Virus record (IMG/VR): IMGVR_UViG_3300020187_003007
Span: 1-64,000 of that record
Reading direction: 5' to 3' (one strand)
DNA from: a virus
DNA: 64,000 nt
Shown here: positions 4,923 through 55,831 of the stretch, in pieces
Layout: each line of letters starts with the position of its first letter
How positions within the stretch are numbered: the first letter of the stretch is position 1
Notes under the pieces: generated by a model
Database searches by the model: none
Told to the model about the DNA's origin: nothing
What the model saw: the letters and a program-made list of their open reading frames with translations, nothing else
Made by a program: the position numbers and the translations under genes

Positions 4923-4926
4923 TATT

Positions 4927-31207: not shown

Positions 31208-31216
31208 TATACACAT

Positions 31217-32575: not shown

Positions 32576-32621
32576 CCCAACTAAGTAGCTAGTATTGCCG
32601 TTATGTGGAAAGTGAAGCATA

Positions 32622-34793: not shown

Positions 34794-34858
34794 AAAAATT
34801 GAAACACTAGTGGATTCTATAGGGATTGAATAAGTATATTTAACAATCTCTTAAGAAA

Positions 34859-35386: not shown

Positions 35387-35409
35387 AAAACACAGTTACA
35401 AATTAGTCT

Positions 35410-36087: not shown

Positions 36088-36090
36088 ATA
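36083..36090 (+). promoter_or_regulatory. T4-type late promoter of glycan cassette
   Basis: AATAAATA, 7 nt before the ATG at 36098. It places the first sugar gene of the cassette under late control. Confidence 0.65.
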
Positions 36091-36097: not shown

Positions 36098-37006
36098 ATG
36101 AAGTTAAAATGTTTAGTAACTGGAGGAGCGGGATTTATTGGAAGTCACTGCGTGGATAGACTTAAAGAACTCGGCCATGACGTTGTCGTAGTTGATAACG
36201 AATGTGCACCTGAGAATGACAATTTCTATTGGAGAGATGATACTGATAACCATAAAGTCAATATCATGGATTATGATGCATTGGCTCCCTTGTTCAAAGG
36301 AGTTGATTACGTGTTTCATTTCGCCGCTGAGAGTAGAATACAACCAAGTATCATAGATCCTAGATATGCCATCAATGTTAATGTCGTTGGCACCACGAAT
36401 GTACTTCAAGCTTCAAGGGAGGCTAACGTCAAAAGGGTTATGTATTCAGGTACAAGTGCTAGTTACGGTCTAGCTAACACACCACCTTTAACAGAGGATA
36501 TGCCAACTGATTGTTTGAATCCATACTCAGTCGGTAAAGTAGGTGGTGAAGAGGTGTGTAAGATGTACACTCGCTTGTTTGGAGTTGAAACCACACGATT
36601 CAGATACTTCAATGTTTACGGAGATCGTAGTCCTACAAAAGGTCAATATGCTCCCGTGATTGGATTGTTTTTTCAACAAAAGATTGCCAAGAAACCTATG
36701 ACAGTTGTTGGAGATGGTGAGAGAAGAAGAGATTACACGCATGTGTCAGATATTGTTGAGGCGAACATACTAGCAGCAACATGCAAGAACATGCGCGCGG
36801 TAGGTGGATTGTTCAATTTAGGAAATGGTGTAAATTATAGTGTGTTAGATTTAGTCAAGATGATAGGCGGTCCTTACGAGCATATCAAAGACAGATTAGG
36901 TGAAGCGGATGCAACGTTAGCCGACAACACTAGAGCTAAAGAAATATTAGGTTGGGACCCCAAGATCGATCTACCGGAATGGATATACAATAACAAACCT
37001 GGGTGA
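36098..37006 (+). CDS. NAD-dependent nucleotide-sugar epimerase/dehydratase
   Basis: 302 residues of the extended short-chain dehydrogenase type. TGGAGFIGSHCVDRL binds NAD, and catalytic residues appear as SGTSASYG and the Y-x-x-x-K of NPYSVGKVGGEE. RFRYFNVYGDRSP and GDGERRRDYTHVSDI are typical of UDP-glucose/UDP-N-acetylglucosamine 4-epimerases. Substrate is not fixed by sequence. It overlaps the next gene by 4 nt and starts the glycan cassette. Confidence 0.88.
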   Translation: MKLKCLVTGGAGFIGSHCVDRLKELGHDVVVVDNECAPENDNFYWRDDTDNHKVNIMDYDALAPLFKGVDYVFHFAAESRIQPSIIDPRYAINVNVVGTTNVLQASREANVKRVMYSGTSASYGLANTPPLTEDMPTDCLNPYSVGKVGGEEVCKMYTRLFGVETTRFRYFNVYGDRSPTKGQYAPVIGLFFQQKIAKKPMTVVGDGERRRDYTHVSDIVEANILAATCKNMRAVGGLFNLGNGVNYSVLDLVKMIGGPYEHIKDRLGEADATLADNTRAKEILGWDPKIDLPEWIYNNKPG

Positions 37007-37344
37007 GTGTAACCACAGGCAAGCTGTTCGATCAAGCTCATCCAGATCTATATAAGAAATGGGTGATAGGTGGCTTCGTTCAGGATCATAAATTCAATAG
37101 TGATCACTTTGAGTTTAAGTTTCAAGAGGATAAAAAAGGAATGTTAAGAGAGCCAAAGACAGTGATCAATCCTGATACAAATACTCTCGCTATATTGATT
37201 CATGGAGAGTTACGTTTAAACTTTGGCGAAGATGACATAATCTTACGTGATAGGGGTGATTATGTATGGTGGTCACCTGATGAACCTCACCTGTTCGAAT
37301 ACATTGAGGATAGTCTCGTAATAACTTTGAGATGGTATAAATAA
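37003..37344 (+). CDS. Cupin-domain protein
   Basis: 113 residues from GTG 37003. TLAILIHGELRLNFGEDDII and GDYVWWSPDEPHLFEYIED form the two conserved cupin motifs of a double-stranded beta-helix. Small cupins in such clusters are often sugar isomerases or ring-modifying enzymes; this one lacks a clear set of metal-binding His residues, so its activity is uncertain. Coupled to the epimerase by overlap. Confidence 0.65.
   Translation: MSVTTGKLFDQAHPDLYKKWVIGGFVQDHKFNSDHFEFKFQEDKKGMLREPKTVINPDTNTLAILIHGELRLNFGEDDIILRDRGDYVWWSPDEPHLFEYIEDSLVITLRWYK
37336..37343 (+). promoter_or_regulatory. T4-type late promoter (perfect consensus)
   Basis: TATAAATA overlapping the end of the cupin gene, 7 nt before the ATG at 37351. 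Confidence 0.75.
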
Positions 37345-37350
37345 TTATAT

Positions 37351-38061
37351 ATGAGTAATAGTACGTATATTATGTTTGGTGATAGTCATTCACGTGCTTT
37401 CATGAGAACATTTAAAACGAACTGGTTCCGAGCTAGCTCCGCCCGGGGGTTATGTAATAAAGAATCTAGAACTAAAATCGGACCAAAGATTCACGACATG
37501 TTAAGTTCTATCAATGATGATACAAATGTTATTTTTTATTTCGGTAAGGTTGATTTAGATTTTATTATAAACTATAAATACAACTCACAGGACTCAAGTC
37601 TAGCTGAACTGAGTGAACACATAACAGAAACTGCTGATATGTATATTAACTACATAAAGAGTACTGGTATGAGAAATATTTTAGTATTTGAACCACCAGT
37701 TGTACATTTAAGTGAAGCAGACATGCTAACAACATTACGAATTGACGGTCATAGAAGTAATGCATCTAGCCATTTAACTGATAAAGATAAAGTAGAGTTA
37801 CACCGTGTGGATATACATGAGAAAATGATCCCTCGAGAAGATCACATAACGTTATATGATTTGTTTAATACTCGACTGAAATCATTATGCTCATCGAACG
37901 GCTTCACGTTTGTTGAGATAAATAAATATTTTAAACAACCATCCGGAGAGTATATTGTACCATCTAGATATATTAAAGATACAACCGATCATCACCTACA
38001 TGACAATTGTACTGAATTATTTTTAAAGTCTATGGAGACACTTGGATATATAATTGAGTGA
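37351..38061 (+). CDS. SGNH-hydrolase-like protein
   Basis: 236 residues. YIMFGDSHSRAFMRTF carries the G-D-S-H block I with the nucleophile Ser, and the C-terminal DTTDHHLHDNC gives the D-x-x-H-type block V. VIFYFGKVDLDF occupies the position of a middle strand. SGNH enzymes in glycan clusters act as O-acetyl esterases or acyltransferases. Here an O-acyl modification of the glycan is plausible. It overlaps the next gene by 4 nt. Confidence 0.65.
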   Translation: MSNSTYIMFGDSHSRAFMRTFKTNWFRASSARGLCNKESRTKIGPKIHDMLSSINDDTNVIFYFGKVDLDFIINYKYNSQDSSLAELSEHITETADMYINYIKSTGMRNILVFEPPVVHLSEADMLTTLRIDGHRSNASSHLTDKDKVELHRVDIHEKMIPREDHITLYDLFNTRLKSLCSSNGFTFVEINKYFKQPSGEYIVPSRYIKDTTDHHLHDNCTELFLKSMETLGYIIE

Positions 38062-38777
38062 GGTTACAATCATTTATATTCAACTGGCCCGGGCAGTCTG
38101 AAAACGTCAATAAAATATATAATGATATTGACGGTAGTGTTGTTATAAATAGTGGTGATACTGATATTGTTGACCGCTGTCATAACATAGGAGATCATTC
38201 ATACTTCAGTGCTCAGTTCAAGAAGATGTTATCACTACATGACGGAACTAGCACAATACTACACATACAAGGTGACGCTAGATATTATGATTGGTCTAAA
38301 CTGATAAAAGACGCTGGTCATTACATGTCAAGATATTCCGCTGGTATATATTACCCTGTTGTAAAAAATACATCATGGACTGCCGATAAAATGGCTGTGA
38401 CAAAATCATCATCTCGTGATGACAATATAAGTTATGTTGCAGATGGTGATGAAACTGTATGGTTTATACATCCAGATGTAATCAATTATTTTAATGATCA
38501 TAATTTAATAGACATATTACATGATAATAAGTATGGATTTGGATGGGACTTAATACTCTGCTCTATATGTCATCTAAAACAAATTCCAGTCATTAGAGAT
38601 AGCAATCACATAATAGAACACCCTCGAAGCAAAGGATATGACTTTCATGAAGCATGGATAGAATTCAAGGATGTGATGAACCAACTCCCGGGAGATCTGA
38701 AGATAATTGCAGAAATGGTACATAACAACCACAAGATAGATGATCTTAAGAATCATGTTGATAAGTATTGTATATGA
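38058..38777 (+). CDS. Putative glycosyltransferase (GT-A-like)
   Basis: 239 residues from GTG 38058. The N-terminus LQSFIFNWPGQSENVNKIYN and the central TILHIQGDARYYDWSKLI (a QGDAR strand where GT-A enzymes place the D-x-D) suggest a glycosyltransferase, as does GFGWDLILCSICHL. The family is not certain. Gene context within a dense transferase cluster supports it. Confidence 0.5.
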   Translation: MRLQSFIFNWPGQSENVNKIYNDIDGSVVINSGDTDIVDRCHNIGDHSYFSAQFKKMLSLHDGTSTILHIQGDARYYDWSKLIKDAGHYMSRYSAGIYYPVVKNTSWTADKMAVTKSSSRDDNISYVADGDETVWFIHPDVINYFNDHNLIDILHDNKYGFGWDLILCSICHLKQIPVIRDSNHIIEHPRSKGYDFHEAWIEFKDVMNQLPGDLKIIAEMVHNNHKIDDLKNHVDKYCI

Positions 38778-39400
38778 ATGTTTCCGTAGTGTGTGCTGTT
38801 ATGAATCGACCTTACAGGGTGATACCTTGTCTCCGTTCGTGGGTTGATTTGAAAATCGCTAATGATGTTGTTGTGGTAGACTGGTCATCCGATAAGCAGA
38901 TCAATGATATAATAGCAGAAGAAGAATTCAATCACAGCAAATTAACTGTAGTCCGAGTAGACAATCAAGAAAAATTTAACTTCGGTAGAGCGTACAATAT
39001 AGCAATTGATAGATGTGAGAGTGACATTGTCGTGAAGGTTGATATAGATTATATTTTAACAAATCAAGTCAAACTAACAGAAGTCGTGGATGGTATCAAT
39101 TTTGATAAACAATTTCTACACGGAGGTGGTACCGGTGCTCATTACCTGGGCTTCAGTTGTTTTGACAAGACACATGGTGAGAGGTACAATGAAAATTTTA
39201 ATGGATATGGATATGAAGATGGTGACCTGTACAAAAGATTTCAGAACATAGGTTTAGAAAAAATGATTATACCTGATATACGTGAGATATTTTATCATAT
39301 ACCTCATGACAACAGACTCAGAGTGCAAAATTTTGATGTTAAGGATATAGCGGAATCAACAAAAAATAATATGCAAATTGCAGACACCAATGATGAGTGA
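38774..39400 (+). CDS. GT2-family glycosyltransferase with GT7-type C-terminal motif
   Basis: 208 residues from ATG 38774. It starts NVSVVCAVMNRPYRVIPCLR, then VVVVDWSSD, KFNFGRAYNIAI and the metal-binding DIVVKVDIDYIL. The C-terminal FNGYGYEDGDLYKRFQNIGL is the acceptor-site motif shared with galactosyltransferase/chondroitin-synthase type enzymes. Probable role: transfer of Gal or HexNAc-type sugar. It overlaps the previous gene by 4 nt. Confidence 0.78.
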   Translation: MNVSVVCAVMNRPYRVIPCLRSWVDLKIANDVVVVDWSSDKQINDIIAEEEFNHSKLTVVRVDNQEKFNFGRAYNIAIDRCESDIVVKVDIDYILTNQVKLTEVVDGINFDKQFLHGGGTGAHYLGFSCFDKTHGERYNENFNGYGYEDGDLYKRFQNIGLEKMIIPDIREIFYHIPHDNRLRVQNFDVKDIAESTKNNMQIADTNDE

Positions 39401-41210
39401 TATAGAGTCAGAGGTAAAGTGGCGTATGGGTCGGTTGTATAGTGAGAGATTAGAGCTAAGAGACTTAATTGATGACAAGCAGGATTTAGAAGCAATGAAA
39501 GTGAAGCTATTGTATGAGTTAGATAATATTAGAAACAATAAAGAATTATTAAATGAGAAAAAGAGATTATCTGATGAGTTGGAGGAATGTAAGAACAACG
39601 AGACATTATTAAAGAGGAAGGATAAATTAACCGATCTTACAAATAATAGAAATAAACTTATACAAGAACTTGATAAGCATATAACTAACAAAGTGTTATT
39701 AAAGAGAAAGATCGAACTGACCGAATTGAAAAATAATAGAGACCAGCTCATACAAGAACTCAACAAACATAAAAATAATAGTACAATATTAAAGAAAAAG
39801 AATGAATTGATCAAATCAAGTGAAGAGAGAAATAATCTCATACAAGAACTCAACAAACATAAGAACAACGAGACATTATTAAAGAGGAAGGATAAATTAA
39901 CTACCTCACTAGATGTAATGAAATATAATAAAGCATTACACACTATTGAAGCTAGTAACATAACTTTAGAACTAAAATCAATACAAGAACAATTATATCC
40001 ACTAACATTAACAACGAAAATATCTGACCTTGATTACGTTCAAGCTGAACTAAAATCAATACAAGAACAACTAACACCATCATCATTAACAACGAAAATA
40101 TCTGACCTTGATTACGTTCAAACTGAACTAAAATCAATACAAGAACAACTAACACCATCATCATTAACAACGAAAATAGCTGACCTTGATTACGTTCAAA
40201 CTGAACTAAAATCAATACAAGAACAACTAACACCGGCAGAGACTCTGAATAAGCTAACAACTATACAACAGGAGATAGATAAAACCAATCATATAAGCGC
40301 TGAACTGAAGAGTATCCAAAACCGGTTAGACATGGCTCAAGGAACATATCGACACGTGACCATTCCTGGGGAATATGCTTTAGAACAACAGAAGACATGT
40401 CACGGTAGAGATAGCTACCCTAGAGAAGGCTTTTTATTTGACTTTATGATCAACAACAACATCGACACTCAGTTGATAATCGGAGGAGAACGCTCATTTG
40501 GATTTAATGGTGTGTTGTTTTCTCAAGCACGAACAATTGGAGATGATCAAGTGATATTATATCCGGATCATAACCTGTACCCAACACCAGCTGTTGATTT
40601 TCTGTTGAATAAAAATTTTAATCAAACTATTGAGTCTGTACCCTTTGAAGACAAACCTGATATAGCTGTATGGAGAGGTGGAGACACTGGTGGACAAGGC
40701 CCGGTACCAGGACAGGTTGAGTTGGGTCTGGATAAAGTTAAAATAAACAGACAGCATTTTGTTAATAAATTTAAGAATACAAAGTGTATAGACGCTGCTA
40801 TAATTGATAGTGATATCGGCCCTAGTACGCCAGAGATCAAAGGAGATCCTAATTGGTTGATGCCACATGAACAGGCTAATAACTACAAATATATAATATC
40901 ACTTGAGGGTAATGATGCTGGTAGTAATCCTAGATGGGTGTTCTCAACACAATGTGTAGTGTTCATGTCTGACAAACTGACATCCGAACTCACATGGCAT
41001 TATCATCTGAAACCATGGGTCAATTATATTCCATTCAAACATGATCTTAGTGACCTGGAGAATAAGATAAAGTGGGCTAATGATAACATTGATGAATGTA
41101 AATCGATAGTCAAACGAGCTAATGAAATGCATGGACTGGTAACTGACGTGGAGCGTGAATATAAAATATTAACATTAATGTTCGATAGATACAAGACAAA
41201 TATTAAATAA
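39390..41210 (+). CDS. Coiled-coil/GT90 (CAP10-like) glycosyltransferase fusion
   Basis: 606 residues. Residues about 1-315 are one long coiled coil: a 30-residue repeat (about 68-170) and then a 26-residue repeat containing ELKSIQEQLTPSSLTTKISD (about 195-285). Residues about 330-606 form a glycosyltransferase of the CAP10/GT90 type: PDIAVWRGGDTGG, KYIISLEGNDAGSNPRWVFS, then STQCVVFMSD and HYHLKPWVNYIPFKHDLSDL. GT90 enzymes are mostly O-glucosyl/xylosyltransferases. A coiled-coil half could anchor the enzyme to fibres or oligomerise it. It starts at ATG 39390 (39393 also possible), overlapping the previous gene. Confidence 0.8.
   Translation: MMSDIESEVKWRMGRLYSERLELRDLIDDKQDLEAMKVKLLYELDNIRNNKELLNEKKRLSDELEECKNNETLLKRKDKLTDLTNNRNKLIQELDKHITNKVLLKRKIELTELKNNRDQLIQELNKHKNNSTILKKKNELIKSSEERNNLIQELNKHKNNETLLKRKDKLTTSLDVMKYNKALHTIEASNITLELKSIQEQLYPLTLTTKISDLDYVQAELKSIQEQLTPSSLTTKISDLDYVQTELKSIQEQLTPSSLTTKIADLDYVQTELKSIQEQLTPAETLNKLTTIQQEIDKTNHISAELKSIQNRLDMAQGTYRHVTIPGEYALEQQKTCHGRDSYPREGFLFDFMINNNIDTQLIIGGERSFGFNGVLFSQARTIGDDQVILYPDHNLYPTPAVDFLLNKNFNQTIESVPFEDKPDIAVWRGGDTGGQGPVPGQVELGLDKVKINRQHFVNKFKNTKCIDAAIIDSDIGPSTPEIKGDPNWLMPHEQANNYKYIISLEGNDAGSNPRWVFSTQCVVFMSDKLTSELTWHYHLKPWVNYIPFKHDLSDLENKIKWANDNIDECKSIVKRANEMHGLVTDVEREYKILTLMFDRYKTNIK
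39595..39900 (+). repeat. 90-bp tandem repeats in coiled coil
   Basis: About three and a half copies of a 30-codon unit (NNxxLLKRKxxL ... NNRNxLIQELxKHK). The DNA of the first and last copies is nearly identical around AAGAACAACGAGACATT, present at 39591 and 39861. Confidence 0.75.
39966..40236 (+). repeat. 78-bp tandem repeats in coiled coil
   Basis: About three and a half copies of a 26-codon unit, repeating at 40044, 40122 and 40200 with almost no DNA divergence. Such identity implies recent expansion. Confidence 0.85.
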
Positions 41211-41216
41211 TTATAC

Positions 41217-41897
41217 ATGAAATTTAGATTCGTTACCATCACCAATAAAGGATATTACCACTACACGCAGAACTGTATGGAAAGCTTAAAGGTATCTCCA
41301 AATGCTCCTCAGTTAGAATGTTATTTTACCGACAAACTCGGATATGATCAATATAAAGCCGATAATAATGTTCACTACATTGGCGACAAGTCTAGTGAGA
41401 ATGAATGTGAGCATATTGAATTCCGTAAAGGTAATTGGATAAGTCTAGTTGGTAAGAAGATTAACGTAATCTCAAAAATACTTAAAACTGGTGATTGTGT
41501 AATTATTACCGATGGTGATATAGTATACAAGCATCCACAATGGTTCGACTACATCAAGGGAAGAATGACCAACCCGGAGGTAGAATTCATGTGTATGAAT
41601 GATATGTTATCGGATGATGATCATAGCATGCTTTGCTCCGGATTTATGGTTTTGAAACCTACTGTAAATAACATGAAATTTTTTAATGATAATATTGATA
41701 TCAGTGATCTTCCCGGTGATCAAGTGTATGTCAATAATATCAAGAGTGATTTAAAATATGAAATGCTACCGCTAGATAAGTTCCCTAACGGTCGGTTGCA
41801 TCAAGCTGCGAGCGACCCACACACTCTTCATTACAATTTCATGATAGGTAAGACCAAGGAACAAAAAATGAAGAAGTCCGGAAACTGGTTGATATAA
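41217..41897 (+). CDS. GT77-like nucleotide-sugar transferase
   Basis: 226 residues. RFVTITNKGYYHYTQNCMES opens a GT-A fold, GDCVIITDGDIVYKHP contains the D-x-D, and SMLCSGFMVLKPT, GDQVYVNN, PLDKFPNG and HYNFMIG follow the order typical of the nucleotide-diphospho-sugar transferase family (PF03407, GT77-like). Starts 6 nt after the GT90 fusion gene with a weak late-promoter-like ATTAAATA upstream. Confidence 0.75.
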   Translation: MKFRFVTITNKGYYHYTQNCMESLKVSPNAPQLECYFTDKLGYDQYKADNNVHYIGDKSSENECEHIEFRKGNWISLVGKKINVISKILKTGDCVIITDGDIVYKHPQWFDYIKGRMTNPEVEFMCMNDMLSDDDHSMLCSGFMVLKPTVNNMKFFNDNIDISDLPGDQVYVNNIKSDLKYEMLPLDKFPNGRLHQAASDPHTLHYNFMIGKTKEQKMKKSGNWLI

Positions 41898-41902
41898 TCA
41901 CA

Positions 41903-42799
41903 ATGAAGGCAATTCTAGTATCCGTAAAATACGATGACTACCTGTCACTCGCATTAAAATTCAACCAACATATATTCGAAGAGATAATTGTTGTCACTAC
42001 TAACACTGACCACGATACAATCAAGGCGTGTGACGAGATTGATAATGTCCATTGTGTTCGTGTTGATGATAGTGAAGTAACCAAAGGAGGAGCAGTATTC
42101 AACAAGGGTCATCTCTTAAACTTCGCAGTGAAATATCTAGAGGATCAACAATACAAAGGATGGATATGTTCGACAGATGGTGATATAATGTTCTCATCTG
42201 GATTCGATAAAAAATTTGATGAAATAAAAGAACAAGTAGATTCCTATGGAGTTAATAGTAACCGAATTATATTCACAGCTCCTAGGTATTTTATGCCACA
42301 GAATATAGAGTGGGTAGAAAGTTTTATGAGTAATCCAGATGTATCGTCAACACGAGATGAATATGGAAACTATACAGGCGTTAAATATAAAGGACTAACT
42401 AGACTCCCAAATGAAGGTAAGGAGAGAATAGGACTAGGGTATTGTCAGATGTATTATATAGATACAGTCACACGAATCAAACCTCATCAAGCCGCGGAAC
42501 ATCCTTATTATTATCAAGCGAGTGACTTGAAATCAACTATGGGTCTCGACACAAAATTGATCGGAAATTTTAAATGCACCGCCACTCGTAAAACAACACC
42601 AACTAAACAACTTCTCGATGTTTCAAATGTTATGGACCAGAGTGGTAAGGGTGAAGTTAAGCCTGGCTTCAATATAGAGCTCACATTTCGAAACGAACAT
42701 GTATTCTGTTGTCATTATGAATCTGATGACTTTTACTGTCTGCATATTGGTAGATCTTGGATCAACCAGAAGGGTAGAGTAAGTGCTAGAATTTCATGA
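41903..42799 (+). CDS. GT-A glycosyltransferase
   Basis: 298 residues. VKYDDYLSLALKFNQHIFEE then IIVVTTNTDHDT and NKGHLLNFAVKYL, followed by GWICSTDGDIMFSSGF with D-x-D. It is a paralogue of the protein at 48017-48760, which has the same VT(T/K)-D-x-D-T-I-K-x-C and F-N-K-G order. GLGYCQMYYIDT near residue 175 probably lines the acceptor site. Overlaps the next gene by 4 nt. Confidence 0.7.
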   Translation: MKAILVSVKYDDYLSLALKFNQHIFEEIIVVTTNTDHDTIKACDEIDNVHCVRVDDSEVTKGGAVFNKGHLLNFAVKYLEDQQYKGWICSTDGDIMFSSGFDKKFDEIKEQVDSYGVNSNRIIFTAPRYFMPQNIEWVESFMSNPDVSSTRDEYGNYTGVKYKGLTRLPNEGKERIGLGYCQMYYIDTVTRIKPHQAAEHPYYYQASDLKSTMGLDTKLIGNFKCTATRKTTPTKQLLDVSNVMDQSGKGEVKPGFNIELTFRNEHVFCCHYESDDFYCLHIGRSWINQKGRVSARIS

Positions 42800-43791
42800 A
42801 TACCGAGTATATACCAGTACACATACCGTCAGTACCTATATATGATATCTTTAAAGACCCTAGAGGAAACATACATGTAATATCACCACCTCCGGCTGAA
42901 GACAGAGAGATTGACGAAGTGTTAGACATAAGACTTTATAGAGAAGGAACCAGTGATTTAAGGTTTGAACCTATACGATGTGCACACGGAAACACCCGGA
43001 GATATACTCTATATAATCATGACCTACATGTACAGACTACTGAGATTACATTAACTGTGGGAGGTAATAAAATTAAGACGAGAATAAACGTACCGCCAAA
43101 GTTTGAGAATGAGATAGTGATAACCACGCTATGTAAAGACAGACAAGAGTGGGTCACGACGTGGGCTAATTATCACTTCGATTTAGGAGTGGATAGGATA
43201 ATATTATATGATAACTCTAAAAATAATAATCTTAGAGATTCACTAGCACCATTAATATCATCCGGAAAAGTGTTTTATATAAGATGGTCATATCCCTTCA
43301 AAACAAGTTCATTAAAAGCCACTGGAAGAAAACGAAACAGCTTATCATGTCAAACTACTTCTCAAAATCATTCGCTAAATCTTTTATCAAACTGTCGGAT
43401 AGTAGGTAACTTAGATGTGGATGAGTTTATTAATCTACAAAAACATAAAAATGTTATGAGTTTTTTTGATGAGTATATAAGAAGAGAGGAATATTACATC
43501 CGCATCCCCAGCAGGACATTTTTTAATAGCTCAAACAAACCCTACACTGGTAAGAAGTTCTTCAAAATATTCGAGTGTAACAGGACTACAGAGACACATA
43601 ATGGAAAGCTATTTATACACCCAAAATCAATACCCGTAATTTCTGTACATCTACTGACTGACAACAATGTGATCACCGAGGTGAATCCTATCACTGCTTA
43701 CTTCAATCACTACATCTATCTCTCTAATACTAACATATCTAGACGAACACGCACTGATACAACAACCGATAACTCAATACTAAATATATAA
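42796..43791 (+). CDS. GT92/Glyco_tranf_2_4-like glycosyltransferase
   Basis: 331 residues. The catalytic part begins near residue 108: IVITTLCKDRQEWVTTWANY, HFDLGVDRIILYDNSKN, then QNHSLNLLSNCRIVGNLDVD with the D-x-D, and DEFINL. This order is typical of the GT92/DUF23-type and related family-2 enzymes. The first 100 residues are an extra region with Pro-rich and beta segments. Cotranscribed with its neighbours. Confidence 0.75.
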   Translation: MNTEYIPVHIPSVPIYDIFKDPRGNIHVISPPPAEDREIDEVLDIRLYREGTSDLRFEPIRCAHGNTRRYTLYNHDLHVQTTEITLTVGGNKIKTRINVPPKFENEIVITTLCKDRQEWVTTWANYHFDLGVDRIILYDNSKNNNLRDSLAPLISSGKVFYIRWSYPFKTSSLKATGRKRNSLSCQTTSQNHSLNLLSNCRIVGNLDVDEFINLQKHKNVMSFFDEYIRREEYYIRIPSRTFFNSSNKPYTGKKFFKIFECNRTTETHNGKLFIHPKSIPVISVHLLTDNNVITEVNPITAYFNHYIYLSNTNISRRTRTDTTTDNSILNI

Positions 43792-43796
43792 TATAA

Positions 43797-44528: not shown

Positions 44529-44550
44529 CGCATATCTATAAGTAATACTG

Positions 44551-45189: not shown

Positions 45190-45191
45190 AC

Positions 45192-48020: not shown

Positions 48021-48760
48021 AATTTGTAGGTATAACAGTTTGTGTTAATTATGCACCTATTTTGAGATTAGCCTTACAAGAAACAAGCCAAAGACTAGAT
48101 CGCATTATCGTTGTAACCAAGAAAGATGATATTGACACAATAAAGGTTTGTGAGGGATACAATAATGTGGATACAGTCTTCTTTGATTTTAGCGTTGATG
48201 AGAGGTGGTTTGAGACACACATGAAGCGATTTAAAAATGGGGAGATGAACAATCCGCCTGATATGAGAAAGCAATATTGGTCTAAGCGTTTATCTGATGC
48301 TAATGTCAAGGGATTTAATAAAGGTGGAGGGTTGCGTTTAGGTCAGCAACATGTAGTAAAAAACTATCCAGGATCTGTACAAATCATTTTAGATTGTGAT
48401 ATAGTTCTCCCACCTGAATTCAAAACCGCGACGACTAGCATGGATTATATTAATGATGTTTTATATGTACCTAACGAGCGTCGTGATTACACATCATATA
48501 CATTATACAAACAGCAAAAAACATTTAAGAACTACTCCACCGCTGGATGGGGATATTTTCAAATGTACAGACCGTCAATAGAATCTAACAGAGTGTTTTA
48601 TGATGACTGGCCAGATGCAGCGAAGACTGATGTTTGGTTCCGTAACGATATATTAAAGGGTGATTTCAAAAAAAAGATAAAACTCAATACACATGTAGAT
48701 CACTTAGGACAGGAAGGTGGCTCAATACATTTAACTAAATACAACTTCGACTTTAACTGA
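48017..48760 (+). CDS. GT-A glycosyltransferase, paralogue of 41903-42799
   Basis: 247 residues from ATG 48017, overlapping the previous stop. VGITVCVNYAPILRLALQET, IIVVTKKDDIDTIKVCEGY, KGFNKGGGLRLGQQHVV and VQIILDCDIVLPPEF (D-x-D) parallel the protein at 41903. The two copies suggest duplication within the cassette, each probably adding one sugar. Confidence 0.7.
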   Translation: MKFVGITVCVNYAPILRLALQETSQRLDRIIVVTKKDDIDTIKVCEGYNNVDTVFFDFSVDERWFETHMKRFKNGEMNNPPDMRKQYWSKRLSDANVKGFNKGGGLRLGQQHVVKNYPGSVQIILDCDIVLPPEFKTATTSMDYINDVLYVPNERRDYTSYTLYKQQKTFKNYSTAGWGYFQMYRPSIESNRVFYDDWPDAAKTDVWFRNDILKGDFKKKIKLNTHVDHLGQEGGSIHLTKYNFDFN

Positions 48761-48761
48761 A

Positions 48762-49757
48762 ATGATAGTATCACACAAACATAAATTTATATTCATTAAG
48801 ACACACAAGACGTCAACACAGACGTTTATGAAGTTTATCAAACCACATCTAGGGACAGATGATGTTATGGCAGGTGATTCATCTAGTGACGTCAATGAGG
48901 ATACGAAACTCAATGTAGATAAGAAATTTGAATCCACCGGCAAGAGTGCTCACGAGTATGTTGAAGTTTACGGAAACCATCTCCCGTGGTTTATGATCAA
49001 GGAAATAGTAGGTGATGATATATGGAGCAATTATACAAAGATCACTATTGAGAGAGATCCTTACGATAGACTAGTATCACTATTTCATTTCCTTAATAAT
49101 ATTCTCATAAAACCCGGTCTATTCCAGCCCAGCCCGGGTTATCGTTCTCAATTGAAAGGTCCAGAGATTAAAGACATGCTACAGAACAGTCTACTTGATC
49201 TATATCCAGAAGAGATACGAACCTATTTCGAGGAGCTTACACTCATGCAACTATCCTCACCGGTTATGAATCTCATGGATCATGATACGTATGGTCCGAT
49301 TGGAGTCGAAAAAGAGAGATCATTATATAAGAACACCGCGCGTGATTTAAATCTCAGAATATATGAAGTCGATAATAGCCCGTTGATCATCAATAACAAG
49401 CTCGGACCTTTTCCTTATCTAAACACTTCTGATATATGCATTCGATTAGAACCTTTTCAGAAACATCAAGCTAGTGAAGGTCAATGTAGATTTCTCAACT
49501 ATGGATATTACTACGATGGTGATCGATTGCAGGTCGACGAAGTTATAGATTTTAAGGATGTGGGTAACAATATAGGTGATACGTTTCAAAAATACGGAAT
49601 CAATATTAAATGTGATGAGAGTTTATATAATGACAACAGCCAAAACACACACTACAGATCAACTACATCCAGTTATAGTACTGATTGGTGGTATGAAGGC
49701 CTTAAGGGTTTCATGATCAAGGAATTAATTAATGAGAAACTCATTACGCGCACCTAA
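48762..49757 (+). CDS. Divergent sulfotransferase
   Basis: 331 residues. KFIFIKTHKTSTQTFMKFI corresponds to the PAPS 5'-phosphosulfate loop with K-T-x-K-T/S-T, and YTKITIERDPYDRLVSLFHF to the 3'-phosphate motif. It shares only these motifs with the sulfotransferase at 44551, so the two probably modify different positions. The C-terminal 100 residues are extra and Asp/Asn/Tyr rich. Confidence 0.75.
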   Translation: MIVSHKHKFIFIKTHKTSTQTFMKFIKPHLGTDDVMAGDSSSDVNEDTKLNVDKKFESTGKSAHEYVEVYGNHLPWFMIKEIVGDDIWSNYTKITIERDPYDRLVSLFHFLNNILIKPGLFQPSPGYRSQLKGPEIKDMLQNSLLDLYPEEIRTYFEELTLMQLSSPVMNLMDHDTYGPIGVEKERSLYKNTARDLNLRIYEVDNSPLIINNKLGPFPYLNTSDICIRLEPFQKHQASEGQCRFLNYGYYYDGDRLQVDEVIDFKDVGNNIGDTFQKYGINIKCDESLYNDNSQNTHYRSTTSSYSTDWWYEGLKGFMIKELINEKLITRT

Positions 49758-49762
49758 TTACA

Positions 49763-49770
49763 TATAAATA
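49763..49770 (+). promoter_or_regulatory. T4-type late promoter (perfect consensus)
   Basis: TATAAATA, 9 nt before the ATG at 49780. Confidence 0.7.
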
Positions 49771-49779
49771 TATGTATAT

Positions 49780-51618
49780 ATGGAAGAAGAGATGATTGTC
49801 AATTTATGCACCTTTATGGGACGAAAGAATAATGTTAAGATATTACTTGTATACGTGGAAGAAGCGCTCAAGATAAATGCTATTGATAATTATTATATGA
49901 TAGATATGACTCGTAATCATAAGGATCACGAATATATATTTAGCGAACAACAACGACTCAATGAATTATATCCAGAGCGAGTCCACGTTGTGAATAGGGA
50001 GATCCGGAGGAAACAGTTAGACGATAACACGGCTATGGACACAATCGGTAGTTGGGCACCATTCTATGAGTTCTGTAGTCAATTTAGTGACAATGATGTA
50101 ATTATAAAGTGTGATGATGACACTACATACTTTGACGTAGAGACTATTAGAGCTGCAGCAGAGGTAAGATTTAAAAACAAACACCCGTTCCTGATGCATG
50201 GTAATACTATTAATAATGGTATATGTGCTTTTCATCAGCAACGCAAAGGGATATGGACGTTTGAAGGTAATGATGTACTAGACAATTACCCTACAAGTGG
50301 ACTAACAGGTCCCTTGTTTTCTCACCCGGAAATTGCATGCGGGTGTCATGAACAGTTCACACGAGACTTAATAGCAGATGAGAGTAATATTAGTAAATAT
50401 GCCTTAAACTCAAATCCATACTTCACAGCAAGAGTGAGTATTAATATGATATTCATGTTGGGAAGTGATAGAGACATTATCAGCAAGATTGACACGCAAG
50501 ATGAGTATGTTAGTAGCAGTAAGATAGGACAACAAACAGACCGCCCTAACATGTTGATTGGTGATTTTACGTGCGCTCATCACACATACGGAGTTCAAGA
50601 ACCAGTAATGGAGGAGTTAGGTACATACAAAATGTACAAGGAGTTGGCGGATAAATACTACAGTAACGACACAGTACGTACTAACAAGAGTATCACCCAA
50701 CCAGAAGGACAATCACTGACACTCAAGTCTGATGATATATATTTGGCTAGATACTGGAGTGGTGAAAATAGTATAACTATCAAGAACAACAGGACTGATA
50801 AATATATCAATTTAGATTGGGTCAAGACAGAGAGAGTTAAGTTTATCGAGGATAAACCCGGGCAGAAAGAACGAGTAGGAACAGGAGTGTACTGGTATAA
50901 GGCAGAGTTGTCAGCTAGTGACAAGCCAATGGTATTTAATCTAGATGATAAAGAGAAAGGAAACCTACAAATACAGGATTGCACAGAGATATTTAAAACA
51001 TCTCAACCAGGTAATAAGGCTGAACGGTTCATGACATTTCCTGTTAAGAAGTGGTTCCAACAGAACTATAAAAAACAATACGTCAAGATCAATAACATAG
51101 GTACAGATGAAGCACAGATAGAGACTCCTCATCACCCTGGATTCAATTTAGTTGCAGATGATCGTAATCCTGACAAGACTTTATACTTCTTTACAAACGG
51201 TGGAGAAGATACATGGACCGTAGAGGATCTGAGCAATACAAATAATCTAATCGTACCTATTTCAATTGATCGTGGTAATCAGGATGAGTGTGAGAATGAC
51301 CCTACTACCGCCCGGGTTGTTAATGATGACAGTTTACCGGAGTGTAGGAATTTTAGAGAATTCTACTGGATGGTTAATGGGTATATTTGGGAAATGGTAC
51401 CTCAAGGAGATAATGAATGTCATGTAAAGTTGATAGCAGATGATCTAGATGATTTGTATCTCTCCGGAGAAGCTTCCGGTAAAGTGAGGTTGAGTGCCAA
51501 TAAGGATCTCTGGAAGTTAAGCACCGATAAGTTTTTAGTCCACAACTCGACAAAATTAAAGTTATCTATATCACCCACTGGAGTTGAGATTAACTTAACT
51601 GGAACTAAATTATCGTAA
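49780..51618 (+). CDS. Two-domain glycosyltransferase-like protein
   Basis: 612 residues. The N-terminal 300 resemble a GT-A domain: MIVNLCTFMGRKNNVKILL, FSDNDVIIKCDDDTTYFDVE with D-D-D, and a late His in FTCAHHTYG. Residues about 315-612 are a separate beta-rich region with repeated W and D (YLARYWSGENSITI, FYWMVNGYIWEM, KLIADDLDDLYLSGEASGKV), perhaps a carbohydrate-binding or acceptor-docking domain. I do not recognise the second domain. It overlaps ugd by 1 nt. Confidence 0.6.
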   Translation: MEEEMIVNLCTFMGRKNNVKILLVYVEEALKINAIDNYYMIDMTRNHKDHEYIFSEQQRLNELYPERVHVVNREIRRKQLDDNTAMDTIGSWAPFYEFCSQFSDNDVIIKCDDDTTYFDVETIRAAAEVRFKNKHPFLMHGNTINNGICAFHQQRKGIWTFEGNDVLDNYPTSGLTGPLFSHPEIACGCHEQFTRDLIADESNISKYALNSNPYFTARVSINMIFMLGSDRDIISKIDTQDEYVSSSKIGQQTDRPNMLIGDFTCAHHTYGVQEPVMEELGTYKMYKELADKYYSNDTVRTNKSITQPEGQSLTLKSDDIYLARYWSGENSITIKNNRTDKYINLDWVKTERVKFIEDKPGQKERVGTGVYWYKAELSASDKPMVFNLDDKEKGNLQIQDCTEIFKTSQPGNKAERFMTFPVKKWFQQNYKKQYVKINNIGTDEAQIETPHHPGFNLVADDRNPDKTLYFFTNGGEDTWTVEDLSNTNNLIVPISIDRGNQDECENDPTTARVVNDDSLPECRNFREFYWMVNGYIWEMVPQGDNECHVKLIADDLDDLYLSGEASGKVRLSANKDLWKLSTDKFLVHNSTKLKLSISPTGVEINLTGTKLS

Positions 51619-52448
51619 TGAAAGTCGGAGTTATTGGAGCAGGATTCGTTGGAAACGCGATGAGTCAATTAAGCCCAGGAGTGGATATAATCGTATGGGA
51701 CACTGACGAGAGCAAGAGGGTACCAGTTGACATAACATTCGAAGATTTTGTTAAACAGTCTGAAATAGTCTTTATAGCAGTACCTACACCGATGGATAAA
51801 GATGGTAGATGTCATACTGATATCGTTGAGAGTGTAGTTAGCGACGTACGTAGGATTGATAATGAACAGCACATAGTAATAAGATCAACAGTACCTCCTG
51901 GTACATGTGCTCGATTAGGTGTTAGTTTCATGCCAGAGTTCTTGACAGAGAGATATTGGAAGACTGATTTTATACGAACAACAAAGTGGATTATCGGTAC
52001 AAATGATAATATACTATTCGAATTGATGACAACCATGTTCAAACTAGCGAAAGATCGAGGATGTATCGATAGCTGTGTGACTGAACAATACACACCTAGT
52101 GAAGCTGAGATGATGAAGTATACCGCTAATTGTTTTCTAGCGACCAAGATAAGCTTCTTCAATGAAGTTAGCGAGTTATGTGACACAATTGGTATTGATT
52201 ATAATAATATCATCAAATTCTGTGGTGGTGATCCTCGAATTGGTAACAACCACACCCGCGTGCCTGGTCACGACGGAAAGAGAGGATATGGAGGTACATG
52301 CTTTCCAAAGGATATGAACGCATTAGCGCATGAGTTTGAAGCGAACGGTTTAGAGTCATATATAATAAAAGCATCAATCGAACGAAATGAACATCATGAC
52401 CGGCCTGAACGCGATTGGAAGTCGGATAGTGGTAGAGCAGTAATTTAA
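51618..52448 (+). CDS. ugd: UDP-glucose/GDP-mannose dehydrogenase, short form
   Basis: 276 residues. VGVIGAGFVGNAMSQL binds NAD, IVFIAVPTPMDKDG and IVIRSTVPPGT are family motifs, and GYGGTCFPKDMNAL carries the catalytic cysteine. It would oxidise UDP-glucose to UDP-glucuronate (or a related sugar). Most members have about 390-450 residues; here the C-terminal UDP-binding domain is missing, since the protein ends soon after the central helix. The gene has no visible frameshift remnant after it, and glf follows 2 nt later. Confidence 0.85.
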   Translation: MKVGVIGAGFVGNAMSQLSPGVDIIVWDTDESKRVPVDITFEDFVKQSEIVFIAVPTPMDKDGRCHTDIVESVVSDVRRIDNEQHIVIRSTVPPGTCARLGVSFMPEFLTERYWKTDFIRTTKWIIGTNDNILFELMTTMFKLAKDRGCIDSCVTEQYTPSEAEMMKYTANCFLATKISFFNEVSELCDTIGIDYNNIIKFCGGDPRIGNNHTRVPGHDGKRGYGGTCFPKDMNALAHEFEANGLESYIIKASIERNEHHDRPERDWKSDSGRAVI

Positions 52449-52450
52449 TA

Positions 52451-53467
52451 ATGAAGGTAAATATATTTGGATGCGGGATGAGCGGCACAGTCGCGGCGAT
52501 CTTATTTAAAGAACAAGGACATGATGTTGAGATATTTGAGACTAGGTCTCATGTTGCTGGCAATTGTTTTGATAAAAAGAATGAGGATGGTTGCACAGTA
52601 CATGAGTATGGTTCGCATATCTTCCATACCAACGATAAAGAGGTATGGGACTTTTTAAACCGGTACACAAAATTTAACGACTATCAGCACCGTGTCAGAG
52701 CGAACACCAAGGAAGGATTATTGAGCATTCCATTCAGTAAAAAGACAGAACAAGAACTCGGACGTGATCTGTCACCTAAAGAGATACAAGAGTTGTTATT
52801 CCGTGATTATTCCGAACGTCATTGGGGCATACCATGGGAGGAATTACCCAAGAGTATAAGCGGCAGAGTACCTAACAAACGTGACAATTTCGACGACCGA
52901 TACTTCACTGACACATATCAAGGTATACCAGAGAAAGGATATACTACCATGTTTAATAATATGTTAGATGGTATCAAGGTTAACGTTGGTGTAGATCGTG
53001 ATTTACGCAAACGTATCAAAGGGGACCTTACAGTTTGGACCGGAAAGATATCTGAGTATTTCGACTTAGCATACGGTCATCTCCCTTATCGTTCCCTTAG
53101 ATTTGAACACACACGCGTAAAACGAGACCCGATGTACACATGGGACAAAGGATCAGTTATTAACGAATGTAACACCAAGCCTTTCAACCGTACTATGGAC
53201 AACAGTGTGTATCTCAAGGAGGATGTGACTCACACTATTCATACACGTGATCATCCAGAGGAATATCAACCAGGTGTCAATGATCCAATTTACCCAAAGA
53301 CATTCGGAGAAGGTCCAGAGGTATATAAGAAATATTTACAAGCCGCCGAAGCAGATAAGAATACTATATTCTTAGGCCGATTAGCCACATACAGATACTT
53401 GGATATGTGGATGGCAGTAAAACAAGTTATAGCTAAACTTGAAACTAGTGATAAATTAAAACGATGA
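52451..53467 (+). CDS. glf: UDP-galactopyranose mutase
   Basis: 338 residues. VNIFGCGMSGTVAAILFKEQ is the FAD-binding start, and GNCFDKKNEDGCTVHEYGSH followed by IFHTN is the strongly conserved substrate-domain motif. LRFEHTRVKRD and GRLATYRYLDM lie at the expected ends. It converts UDP-galactopyranose to UDP-galactofuranose, so galactofuranose may occur in the glycan. It overlaps fcl by 4 nt. Confidence 0.92.
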   Translation: MKVNIFGCGMSGTVAAILFKEQGHDVEIFETRSHVAGNCFDKKNEDGCTVHEYGSHIFHTNDKEVWDFLNRYTKFNDYQHRVRANTKEGLLSIPFSKKTEQELGRDLSPKEIQELLFRDYSERHWGIPWEELPKSISGRVPNKRDNFDDRYFTDTYQGIPEKGYTTMFNNMLDGIKVNVGVDRDLRKRIKGDLTVWTGKISEYFDLAYGHLPYRSLRFEHTRVKRDPMYTWDKGSVINECNTKPFNRTMDNSVYLKEDVTHTIHTRDHPEEYQPGVNDPIYPKTFGEGPEVYKKYLQAAEADKNTIFLGRLATYRYLDMWMAVKQVIAKLETSDKLKR

Positions 53468-54390
53468 AATTGTTAATAACAGGTGGTACTGGTTTGGTAG
53501 GAACCGGAATTAAATCAATCGCAAGTGAATTTCCAGAGCTTGATATATCTTATATGTCTTCGAAGGATTGTAACTTGCTTGATTACGATCAAGTGTTGGA
53601 ATATTTCTGGAACGAAGAACCAGAATGTATTATTCACTTGGCTGCAAATGTTGGTGGGTTGTACAAGAACATGAACCAAAAAGTGGAGATGTTTGATGAT
53701 AATATTCAAATGAATCTCAACGTGATAAAAGCTGCATTCTCAAATGATATCAAGAACTTGATAGGTACTTTATCAACATGCATCTTTCCTGACAACACAA
53801 CATATCCTATCAACGAGACCATGCTTCATGATGGAGCACCACACACATCAAATGACGCATATGCGTATGCAAAAAGAATGATCAAGGTTCAATGTGACGC
53901 ATATAGCGCTCAGCATGATGTGAATTATTCGTGCATAATACCTACGAACATATACGGAGAAGGTGACAATTTCTCATTAGAGGATGGACATGTGATACCC
54001 GCATTGATCCACAAATGCTTTAACGCTGTTAAAAATGGTACTGATTTTGAAGTGTATGGTACAGGTAAGCCGTTGCGTCAGTTTATATACTCAAAGGACC
54101 TAGGTAGATTGATACTAAAATCAGTATACAAACTAATGCAAGAAAGTATAATACTGGCACCTCGTGAGGAAGTCGCGATTGGTGATGTGGCTCGTTACAT
54201 CGCTAGAGCGTTTGACTACGAAGACCGTATGATATTCAATGATAGCTTTAGTGATGGTCAATACAAGAAGACAGCTGATAACTCCAAACTAATGGAGTTG
54301 TTCCCGGATTTTGAATTTATGAAAATCGAGGAAGGTATAGCTGAGACCGTTAAGTATTTCAAACATGAGTACCCAAATTTAAGACTATGA
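53464..54390 (+). CDS. fcl: GDP-L-fucose synthase
   Basis: 308 residues. TGGTGLVGTGI binds NADPH, LAANVGGLYKN, STCIFPDNTTYPINE, the Y-x-x-x-K in YAYAKRM, and IPTNIYGEGDNFSLEDGHVI are typical of Fcl/WcaG. GTGKPLRQFIYSKDLGRL closes the substrate pocket. It performs the last two steps (epimerisation and reduction) from GDP-4-keto-6-deoxymannose to GDP-L-fucose, using the product of Gmd two genes downstream. Confidence 0.93.
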   Translation: MKLLITGGTGLVGTGIKSIASEFPELDISYMSSKDCNLLDYDQVLEYFWNEEPECIIHLAANVGGLYKNMNQKVEMFDDNIQMNLNVIKAAFSNDIKNLIGTLSTCIFPDNTTYPINETMLHDGAPHTSNDAYAYAKRMIKVQCDAYSAQHDVNYSCIIPTNIYGEGDNFSLEDGHVIPALIHKCFNAVKNGTDFEVYGTGKPLRQFIYSKDLGRLILKSVYKLMQESIILAPREEVAIGDVARYIARAFDYEDRMIFNDSFSDGQYKKTADNSKLMELFPDFEFMKIEEGIAETVKYFKHEYPNLRL

Positions 54391-54740
54391 ATAACAACAC
54401 AGATGAATCTATCCGCCCATGGGGTAACTACGAGATCTTACTAGATACAGACTACTGTAAGGTTAAGAGAATTTATGTAAAGCCTGGTCAACGATTGAGT
54501 TACCAGTACCATCACAAGAGACAAGAAGCATGGACTGTGGTTAGTGGTGTGGCACGTATAACAATCGACGACGAGACTAATGACTACAAACCAGGCGAGA
54601 CTGTGCTGATTCCATTAGGAGCAAAGCATCGGATGGCCAATCCAGAAACTGATGAGATGATGATACTTGTTGAGGTACAGACAGGTACGTATTTTGGTGA
54701 GGATGATATTGTCCGTGTGCAGGACGATTACAACAGATAA
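54387..54740 (+). CDS. Mannose-6-phosphate isomerase type II-like cupin
   Basis: 117 residues overlapping fcl by 4 nt. [52 protein letters not shown] and [16 protein letters not shown] match the C-terminal cupin domain (PF01050) of bifunctional mannose-1-phosphate guanylyltransferase/mannose-6-phosphate isomerase. Only the isomerase half is present. It would supply mannose-6-phosphate for GDP-mannose, with the guanylyl step left to the host. Confidence 0.88.
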
Positions 54741-54744
54741 TTTT

Positions 54745-55791
54745 ATGAAAATAGCACTTATAACAGGAGTCAATGGACAAGACGGCTCTTATCTAGCAGA
54801 ATTATTATTAGATAAGGGTTATGATGTGTGGGGAGTAGCAAGACGCGCATCAGATATAAACACACAACGCATAGAACATCTTTACTCGAACAAGAAATTG
54901 TTTCTCAGATACGGTGACATGACTGATGGTATCAATCTTGTCAACATATTGTATGAAATAAAAACTACATATCCAGATATGAACCGGTTAGAGATATACA
55001 ATCTAGCTGCTATGAGCCACGTCAAGGTGAGTTTTGACATGCCTGAGTATACAGCGAACGCTGACGGTACTGGTGTGCTAAGATTGTTAGAGGCTGTGAG
55101 GTCTACCGGACTGATGGATGTCACAAGATTTTATCAAGCAGCTACATCAGAACTATACGGACTGGTTCAAGAGGTACCTCAAAAAGAAACCACGCCATTT
55201 TATCCTAGATCTCCTTATGGTGTTGCTAAACTGTATGGATATTGGATAACCAAAAATTACAGAGAGTCATACGACATGTTCGCCGCTAATGGTATTTTAT
55301 TCAATCATGAGAGTCCCAGAAGAGGTCCAACATTTGTGACTCGTAAGGTCACTAGAGGGTTGAACATGATATTGACTGGTGAGCGTGATAAGTTAGTGAT
55401 GGGTAATATTGATGCCAAGCGAGACTGGGGGCATGCTAAGGATTATGTTGAAGGCATGTGGCGTATATTACAAGCTGACAAACCAGATGATTATGTGCTG
55501 TCAACTAATGAATTTCATTCAGTTAGAGAGTTTATCGAGAAAAGCTTCTCTATGAGAGGTTTTGACATTCGATGGAAAGGCACTGGAGTAGATGAGATCG
55601 GGTATGATTATAATAACGGTAGAGAGTTGATACATATCTCAGATAAATACTTTCGACCAGCTGAAGTTGAAGAACTGTTAGGAGACTCAACAAAAGCCAG
55701 AACAGAACTAGGTTGGGAGCCTCAATATTCATTTGATCAACTAGTAAAAGAGATGGTCGATCATGATTGCCCACCGAATAATACTGATTAA
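54745..55791 (+). CDS. gmd: GDP-mannose 4,6-dehydratase
   Basis: 348 residues from ATG 54745. [20 protein letters not shown] is the nucleotide-binding start; [30 protein letters not shown], the Y-x-x-x-K in [12 protein letters not shown] and FNHESPRRG are diagnostic. [20 protein letters not shown] is the family's C-terminal motif. It makes GDP-4-keto-6-deoxymannose for Fcl. A longer frame to ATG 54667 would overlap the cupin gene and precede the conserved start, so it was rejected. It is the last cassette gene. Confidence 0.95.
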
Positions 55792-55823: not shown

Positions 55824-55831
55824 CATAAATA
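55824..55831 (+). promoter_or_regulatory. T4-type late promoter
   Basis: CATAAATA, 12 nt before the ATG at 55844. An ATG-TAA start-stop pair (55835-55840) lies between promoter and gene. Confidence 0.65.

Follow-up and report, generated by a model that had tools for sequence, protein, structure and literature searches.

A glycan gene cassette with late-promoter elements in an uncultured T4-like phage recurs in part as an ordered block in another phage type

What does a phage do with some twenty genes for glycan synthesis placed within its virion-structure region, and which surface would receive their product? The question is raised by a 64,000-nucleotide stretch of viral DNA (positions 1 to 64,000 of IMG/VR record IMGVR_UViG_3300020187_003007; hereafter the window), which covers the greater part of a virus record of 67,404 bases and, judged by its genes, belongs to an uncultured T4-like virus of bacteria from a deep T4-like lineage. 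A preliminary description had proposed a cassette of about twenty genes in the virion-structure region, and such a cassette exists: 22 co-directional plus-strand open reading frames (ORFs), selected from the ORF list, occupy positions 36098–55791, between fibre-like genes and neck and head genes (Table 1). We infer late expression, the glycan chemistry and virion attachment from sequence, and our tentative answer, with a probability of about 0.45, is that the cassette is a late-transcribed, mobile glycan module whose product would be carried on virion proteins.

The cassette contains late-promoter elements of the type NATAAATA, described as the late promoter of cyanomyoviruses in the available text of PMC2984593. 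As in a T4-type late unit, such elements lie directly upstream of genes, including head and tail genes. All four elements reported earlier (36083, 37336, 44520 and 49763) are confirmed and exceed chance. Specifically, 12 of 60 selected plus-strand genes have ATAAATA in the 40 nt ahead of them, whereas 1000 first-order simulations averaged 1.7 such genes and never exceeded 7; 4 of the 22 cassette genes have it (binomial P 0.003). Other ATAAATA elements precede gp22 and fibres. In eight related loci, some of which are near-duplicates so that the counts are not independent, the element is found within 45 nt upstream of 30/92 plus-strand ORFs, versus 1/92 for a mid-gene control; the simulations and these counts reject a chance origin. 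The element ahead of the transferase gene GT49780 is kept in the related locus L008 (position 173, ORF at 185) despite a protein identity of only 51%, while none is seen in L042, L044 or L045, and L053 begins inside the gene. The core ahead of the downstream fibre also precedes the corresponding gene in L007, L008, L012, L015 and L029, and two L045 genes of the sulfotransferase type ST1 have late elements ahead of them. A division of the cassette by sigma-70 promoters or terminators is rejected, as neither is in excess (91 sigma-70-like sites versus 87.1 ± 9.2 expected; 9 terminators versus 9.7). Late transcription of the cassette is well supported by these sequence features.

Much of the cassette recurs in a phage of another type, represented by the near-identical contigs L128 and L129 (one mismatch over 20,993 bases). 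In L128, ST1, the fucosyltransferase GT10, GTx46198, GTB46968, GTA47993, the sulfotransferase ST2, GT49780 and the UDP-galactopyranose mutase (UGM) follow one another in the order of the window, with other genes interspersed and with identities of 61, 60, 67, 77, 50, 63, 45 and 71%, respectively. An epimerase and a cupin gene stand ahead of the block as in the window, the epimerase 81% identical over 193 residues to that of the L128/L208 phage and the cupin-like protein 54% identical to counterparts in L042 and L128, whereas UDP-glucose 6-dehydrogenase (UGDH), GTA41903 and a gene resembling GDP-mannose 4,6-dehydratase (GMD) are placed elsewhere. Upstream of the L128 block are the GMD-like gene, an RNR-like gene (named by likeness) and a phrog_94 head protease gene, and downstream of it are UvsX-, DnaB-, primase- and exonuclease-like genes. 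T4 gp23 was not found on the L128, L129, L042 and L044 contigs, nor the S77 (T4 head) protease on the L128, L042 and L044 contigs; from these records, which may be incomplete, L128-type virions are unlikely to be akin to T4. An ordered gene block is thus common to two phage types, and the cassette is best explained as a horizontally mobile module.

A scan for ST2 returned 80 loci with six full-length matches, this virus and L128 and L129 included, and all six also carry GT49780. GT49780 is present in every cassette compared, but most of these were found by scanning for it. The pattern scans of contigs are non-exhaustive; that for GT10 found this virus only, despite the 60%-identical GT10 in L128. 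Sulfotransferase number varies: the window has two, L128 has two of ST1 type and one ST2, L045 has two of ST1 type, one ST2 and one Sulfotransfer_4, and L044 (21.8 kb), in which no UGM, UGDH, GMD or GDP-L-fucose synthase (GMER) was found, has five of ST1 type and one ST2. One ST1-type ORF of L044 (L044:3-1061, cut by the locus edge) fuses a Core-2/I-branching domain to a Sulfotransfer_2 domain, and this fusion suggests that the sulfate goes on sugar.

Within the T4-like lineage itself, presence of the cassette is patchy. A scan for the head-tail adaptor Ad2 returned 26 loci, of which L004 and L005 are this virus and 11 others, mostly lacking upstream sequence, were not judged. L007 and L008 have cassette genes ahead of Ad2, while in L012, L015 (with its near-duplicate L016), L018 and L029 fibre-like genes run directly into Ad2 with no cassette, the interval from gp15 having been read whole for L015 and L029 and over 4.5 kb for L018. 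The more distant L022–L026 have no cassette gene between gp15 and Ad2, and L020 has other transferase-like genes on the opposite strand (PF11397; GT11 0.0015, below cut-off). Two further Ad2-containing cassette-bearers, L045 and L053, emerged from the GT49780 and UGDH scans. In a tree built from four proteins for 19 taxa (the status of six is unknown, and several nodes are weak), cassette-bearers are interspersed with cassette-less relatives, L045 lying near L015 and L053 with L018. UGM is 82–83% identical to its counterparts in L045 and L053, versus 64–75% for Ad2, gp4, gp21 and gp22, a sign that UGM moved separately; the other cassette genes shared with these two loci are less alike than UGM (32–71%). 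In L053 an ST1-type sulfotransferase gene stands between Ad2 and gp4.

Family assignments rest on Pfam and PHROG profile scans at curated cut-offs, supplemented by PDB sequence searches. GDP-fucose synthesis, as claimed in the preliminary description, is borne out by a profile match for GMD and PDB matches for GMER, and the galactofuranose precursor by the profile of UGM. The best PDB matches of GMER are named GDP-L-fucose synthetase or synthase; 6aqy and 4e5y, presumably eukaryotic entries, are closer than 1bws, which we take to be from E. coli. GMD most likely starts at the ATG at 54745 rather than at the listed TTG at 54667. The claim of a UDP-glucuronate precursor holds in part: UGDH has the expected domains and retains the cysteine motif GGTCFPKDM (the usual form being GGxCFxKD), but the 276-residue protein terminates past the central domain and, in the profile scan, is without the C-terminal UDP-binding domain. 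The L008 UGDH is also 276 residues long (56% identity). A scan with both as queries gave 82 relatives, and of the 80 loci retained (L046–L125, including this virus and some near-identical contigs), 74 have ORFs of 273–297 residues, one has a longer ORF (326) and five have shorter ones, four of which run off the end of the contig stretch. Because 74 of 80 related loci have similarly short ORFs, the reduced UGDH is, across these sequences, a conserved form widespread in viral contigs and not a local break. It may make UDP-glucuronate.

Where about ten transferases had been claimed, seven have family support (38768, 39378, 41217, 42796, 45192, 46968 and 49780) and five have none (38058, 41903, 43797, 46198 and 47993), three of the five having 25–67% identical partners in other cassettes; GTA41903, for example, has 25 and 32% identical proteins in the L042 and L128 cassettes. 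The PF03407 protein 41217 is presumably of GT77 type. The GT11 identity given to 43797 is unconfirmed, its only Pfam row being unrelated (E 0.24) with no PF01531 row up to E 10; a single-sequence fold model of it (pLDDT 42) was unusable. The acyl-modifying role given to 37351 is likewise unconfirmed, with both matches under the cut-off. In contrast, both sulfotransferases stand (PF03567, 57.9 bits for ST1 and 29.7 for ST2, cut-off 22), the ST2 match being confined to profile positions 3–99 of 252, and so does GT10 (PF00852, 64.7 bits, cut-off 23.9), with a match spanning just profile positions 47–129 of 182. A PDB sequence search with ST1 returned no sulfotransferase among its matches. ST2 is 67, 48 and 44% identical to the proteins of L042, L044 and L045, and GTB, 77% identical in L128, is 73% identical in L042. 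In the whole phage collection (50,697 records), GT10 matches four records, never over more than 80% of its length, ST1 matches three, and GT49780 has no match. Among cellular genomes, 70 pattern stretches for GT49780 yielded no relative in a search with few short patterns that was not exhaustive. The fold model of GT49780 (pLDDT 75.9) has GT-A matches with Z up to 13.8; its listed Foldseek rows have query TM-scores of 0.13–0.25, and the GT-A domain ties among many transferase families.

The ratio of non-synonymous to synonymous substitution rates (dN/dS) relative to L007 is 0.057 for the mannose-6-phosphate isomerase (PMI) and 0.066 for GMD, at low dS (0.19 and 0.06, respectively), compared with 0.051 for gp22, 0.016 for Ad2 and 0.168 for the fibre 55844. 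Comparisons with L008 were saturated (five genes), and two of the 22 cassette genes yielded usable values; for these two, PMI and GMD, the estimates indicate purifying selection.

None of the 22 cassette proteins has a membrane-like segment (19-residue window >1.6, Kyte-Doolittle). The cassette differs from a Wzx/Wzy O-antigen or capsule cluster in that the initiating transferase, flippase and polymerase/ligase families (Bac_transf PF02397, Polysacc_synt PF01943 and Wzy_C PF04932) were not found in two records, the sister contig and the L008 record, and from a gtr-type seroconversion operon in that GtrA_DPMS_TM (PF04138) and Phage_integrase (PF00589) were not found in seven records, whereas control genomes matched. 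The searched records may be incomplete or fragments, and the host may supply lipid-carrier functions. The lack of such functions fits a soluble acceptor.

A virion acceptor is slightly favoured because the late elements are shared with virion genes, the cassette is inserted in the neck gene run, and lipid-carrier functions were not found. In this scheme, soluble enzymes in the host cytoplasm would make GDP-fucose (from host GDP-mannose), UDP-galactofuranose and probably UDP-glucuronate; the transferases, of which GT49780, GTB and GT10 are some of the better conserved, would build an oligosaccharide; and the two sulfotransferases, dependent on 3′-phosphoadenosine-5′-phosphosulfate, would add sulfate. 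Attachment would take place in the cytoplasm, on virion proteins that are most probably the long repeat fibres 55844 and 22460 or some other surface protein. The particle would thereby gain a variable, charged coat, which may alter adsorption or act as a shield. Long fibre-like genes occupy 22460–36087 and 55844–59947; the fibre 55844 has relatives in L007 and L008 and no family match above cut-off. Repeats of 14 residues (42-base units, TSxxW type) number 34 in 22460–31204 and 19 in 55844–59947.

Virion decoration, as the preliminary description had it, is plausible, the late elements and the lack of membrane functions speaking for it. Several observations weigh against it. Three late elements stand before genes that are not part of the structural region (2234, 6475 and 10846). 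In L045 and L053, UGM stands directly before Ad2 with no intervening fibre, and in L128 the cassette adjoins replication genes, so that a fibre neighbourhood is not general. Among the compared cassettes GT10 occurs only in the window and in L128/L129, so that GT10 fucosylation is not constant. TSxxW repeats were rejected as a specific acceptor mark because the large fibres of relatives without the cassette are full of them too (40 in L030, 38 in L031). A search for an acceptor among non-cassette proteins shared by both phage types, covering the window, 63.5–67.4 kb, G001 60–120 kb, L128, L206–L209, L042 and L044, gave no convincing candidate. It returned RNR-like proteins, a 30%-identical membrane-looking protein, proteins of 105 and 65 residues, two sugar-enzyme matches that are weak, and a repetitive ORF that the C-terminal portion of 35410 matches at 29%. 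It also returned a protein of 143–144 residues that is 69% identical between the two otherwise dissimilar types (L034:475-909 and L042:14759-15190). The broader proposal, that unrelated aquatic phages exchange a module for a fucosylated, galactofuranose-containing, sulfated coat on their own surface proteins, switchable and negatively charged, serving as shield, decoy or adhesin, seems to us rather unlikely in that full form.

Host lipid A-core, flipped by the host itself, could also serve soluble transferases as an acceptor, and it is a distinct possibility that the late enzymes instead elongate the lipooligosaccharide or O-chain of the host or build a replacement for it, which would block competitors or keep progeny off debris. 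A block common to phages with apparently unrelated virions fits an acceptor of a shared host. Glycosyltransferase islands of pelagimyophages have been interpreted in print as modifying the host O-chain (PMC7029224, available text), and cyanophage lipopolysaccharide (LPS) clusters as acting on the host surface (PMC2984593, PMC9602691, available text). Set against such remodelling are the absence from the searched records of flippase, polymerase/ligase, initiating transferase and GtrA families, the absence of an integrase family in 7/7 records, and the late timing, which would leave a new surface little time to matter. An Opitutaceae metagenome-assembled genome (MAG) encodes a UGM about 68–70% identical to the phage UGMs (L211:5782-7002), with neighbours that are LPS-core-like by reading and unprofiled, but in a sample of 113 genomes of the class of this MAG 40 have a UGM match and no listed match outside the MAG exceeds 44% identity, so that UGM gives no host signal. 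Host assignment through UGM was rejected; of three MAG contigs, two are bacterial-looking (Opitutales) and the third is a glycan cluster in a Proteobacteria-labelled bin, and none of the three MAG genomes has a convincing GTB match (best E 7e-7, partial).

That the cassette glycosylates another phage product, such as modified DNA, is very improbable: QueD- and QueE-like genes at 4266–5751 and a separate small glycosyltransferase set at 8495–10841 are what such a role would call on, yet the cassette lies apart from the Que genes, no DNA-glucosyltransferase family turned up in the Pfam and PHROG scans, and twenty genes with sulfotransferases, GT90, GT92 and GT10 far exceed the needs of base glycosylation. 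We hold it equally improbable that captured, functionless glycan genes are retained to fill the head, an idea raised for cyanophage LPS clusters in the available text of PMC3037559; the purifying selection estimated for PMI and GMD, reading frames that are intact, a gene order conserved in the other phage type and a conserved late element all argue otherwise.

The kind of island is known from the glycosyltransferase islands of pelagimyophages and cyanophages. The host recognition cluster of pelagimyophages, in the available text of PMC7029224, is a hypervariable structural-region island with an adjacent neck gene, fibres, many glycosyltransferases and a UDP-glucose dehydrogenase; the island of the window similarly lies right before neck genes (Ad2 after the fibre 55844) and joins fibres with glycosyltransferases that vary between relatives. 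It differs in that the word sulfotransferase does not occur in the main text of that paper, whose available passages describe no sharing of a cassette between phage types and have GT8 as the commonest transferase family. The LPS clusters of cyanophages P-SSM2, S-SSM7 and S-SM2 are likewise large glycan clusters of marine T4-like phages (PMC3037559, PMC2984593, available text), and S-SCSM1 has the cell-wall genes MPI, GMD, GDP-fucose synthase and fucosyltransferases (PMC9602691, available text); however, the clusters in the available text of PMC3037559 lie near hli03/phoH, and the word sulfotransferase has 0 occurrences there. Synechococcus phage S-SKS1 (NC_020851) has epimerases and a GT10-type fucosyltransferase upstream of a baseplate wedge gene, but this GT10 is 41% identical over just 84 residues, and no sulfotransferase is annotated in the 30 kb examined, where many genes are hypothetical. 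The 484-kb phage LR756508, a record lacking annotation, carries GMD, GMER, GT10 and three ST1-like sulfotransferases within ~10 kb, but in another order and with sulfotransferase and GT10 similarities of only 7e-17 to 1e-10; this cluster was probably assembled independently. Glycans on capsid and tail-tube proteins have a precedent in mycobacteriophages (Freeman et al. 2023, via PMC12619734, available text), whose hosts are mycobacteria.

In the open-licence literature, to which the search was limited (subscription papers lay outside it), no paper on sulfated phage glycans was found. Mycobacteriophage virion glycosylation reportedly involves no sulfation and a gene set of another size. Within that literature, sulfotransferases together with GT10 and UGM in an order-conserved block across two phage types are new, as is the reduced UGDH family. 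The late elements, the selection on two genes and the shared ordered block make the acceptor question testable, and they offer a comparison of one sulfated, fucosylated product on two virion types and in relatives with and without the block. A product on the virion would represent a phage glycoprotein of a new class; one on the host would make the block a transferable surface-change kit.

Table 1. Coordinates of the cassette genes, late-promoter elements and flanking features in the window
Feature	Coordinates	Strand	Evidence or remark
gp15-like tail sheath stabilizer	15129		
Four fibre-like or virion-like ORFs, left flank	31217..36087	+	31217: phrog_32829 tail fibre 1.4e-5
Late-promoter element AATAAATA	36083..36090	+	ahead of first cassette gene
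Nucleotide-sugar 4-epimerase-like short-chain dehydrogenase/reductase	36098..37006	+	PF01370 1.5e-55; phrog_540 2.4e-87; PDB best UDP-glucose 4-epimerase 7.2e-45
Small cupin-like protein	37003..37344	+	Cupin_2 0.035, below cut-off
Late-promoter element TATAAATA	37336..37343	+	
SGNH-like weak candidate (possible acyl-ester enzyme)	37351..38061	+	OSK 0.0028, SGNH 0.049, below cut-offs
Candidate transferase	38058..38777	+	by position only; no Pfam or PHROG match
GT2/GT7C-type glycosyltransferase	38768..39400	+	PF02709 6.7e-7
GT90 glycosyltransferase	39378..41210	+	PF05686 2.2e-14 on residues 393-584
Nucleotide-diphospho-sugar transferase	41217..41897	+	PF03407 1.3e-11
Candidate transferase GTA41903	41903..42799	+	nothing in Pfam above cut-off
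GT92 glycosyltransferase	42796..43791	+	PF01697 9e-17
GT11-like candidate	43797..44528	+	no relevant family match
Late-promoter element TATAAATA	44520..44527	+	ahead of ST1
Sulfotransferase ST1 (Sulfotransfer_2)	44551..45189	+	2.3e-15; phrog_3347 1.8e-20
GT10 fucosyltransferase	45192..46211	+	PF00852 1.1e-17
GTx, candidate transferase	46198..46971	+	no Pfam match
GTB, GT-B-type transferase	46968..48020	+	PF13524 2.7e-18
GTA (47993), candidate transferase	47993..48760	+	no Pfam match
Sulfotransferase ST2 (Sulfotransfer_2)	48762..49757	+	8.8e-7
Late-promoter element TATAAATA	49763..49770	+	ahead of GT49780
GT49780, GT-A-fold transferase	49780..51618	+	phrog_4447 2.7e-10; beta-rich C-terminal half
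Short UGDH	51618..52448	+	PF03721, PF00984
UGM	52451..53467	+	PF03275 5.2e-45; PDB UGMs 8.1e-61
GMER	53464..54390	+	PDB 6aqy 8.6e-84, 4e5y 1.2e-83, 1bws 4.2e-41
PMI cupin domain	54387..54740	+	PF01050 1.3e-32
GMD	54745..55791	+	PF16363 3.8e-139, scored on ORF from 54667
Late-promoter core ATAAATA	55825..55831	+	ahead of downstream fibre
Fibre-like protein, 14-residue repeats, putative acceptor	55844..59947	+	19 TSxxW-type repeats
Head-tail adaptor Ad2 (gp13-like), right flank of island	59940..61073	+	phrog_211 1.5e-15
TnsA-like gene	61070		
gp21-type protease	61582		
gp22	62434		slightly below Pfam cut-off
gp23-type protein	extends beyond window end		

The same virus is also represented by a 146,809-base IMG/VR contig (99.995% identity over 21 kb). 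A megablast over 24 kb found no cultured close relative, and matches of gp21 and gp23 in the phage collection are all below 60% identity, the listed gp23 rows being 33–35%. The phrog_2 terminase was rejected as a kinship marker; it matches G013 and G014, weakly G001 and not G017, but also 11/14 control genomes. The Ad2-annotated gene of S-SM2 is gp13 and is followed by gp14, and the TnsA-like gene 61070 is presumably gp4. Three of the four left-flank ORFs have no family match and are named from position and composition. The QueD- and QueE-like genes may indicate deazaguanine DNA modification. The second glycosyltransferase set, away from the main cassette, includes 8495 (phrog_2456) and 10089 (GT8-like, 0.05, below cut-off). 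The GT90 protein has an N-terminal region of ~320 residues that is repetitive and coiled-coil-looking, with tandem repeats at 39697–39890 and 39969–40234 in units of 78 and 90 bases; this region might serve as a tether or as a scaffold of fibre-like kind.

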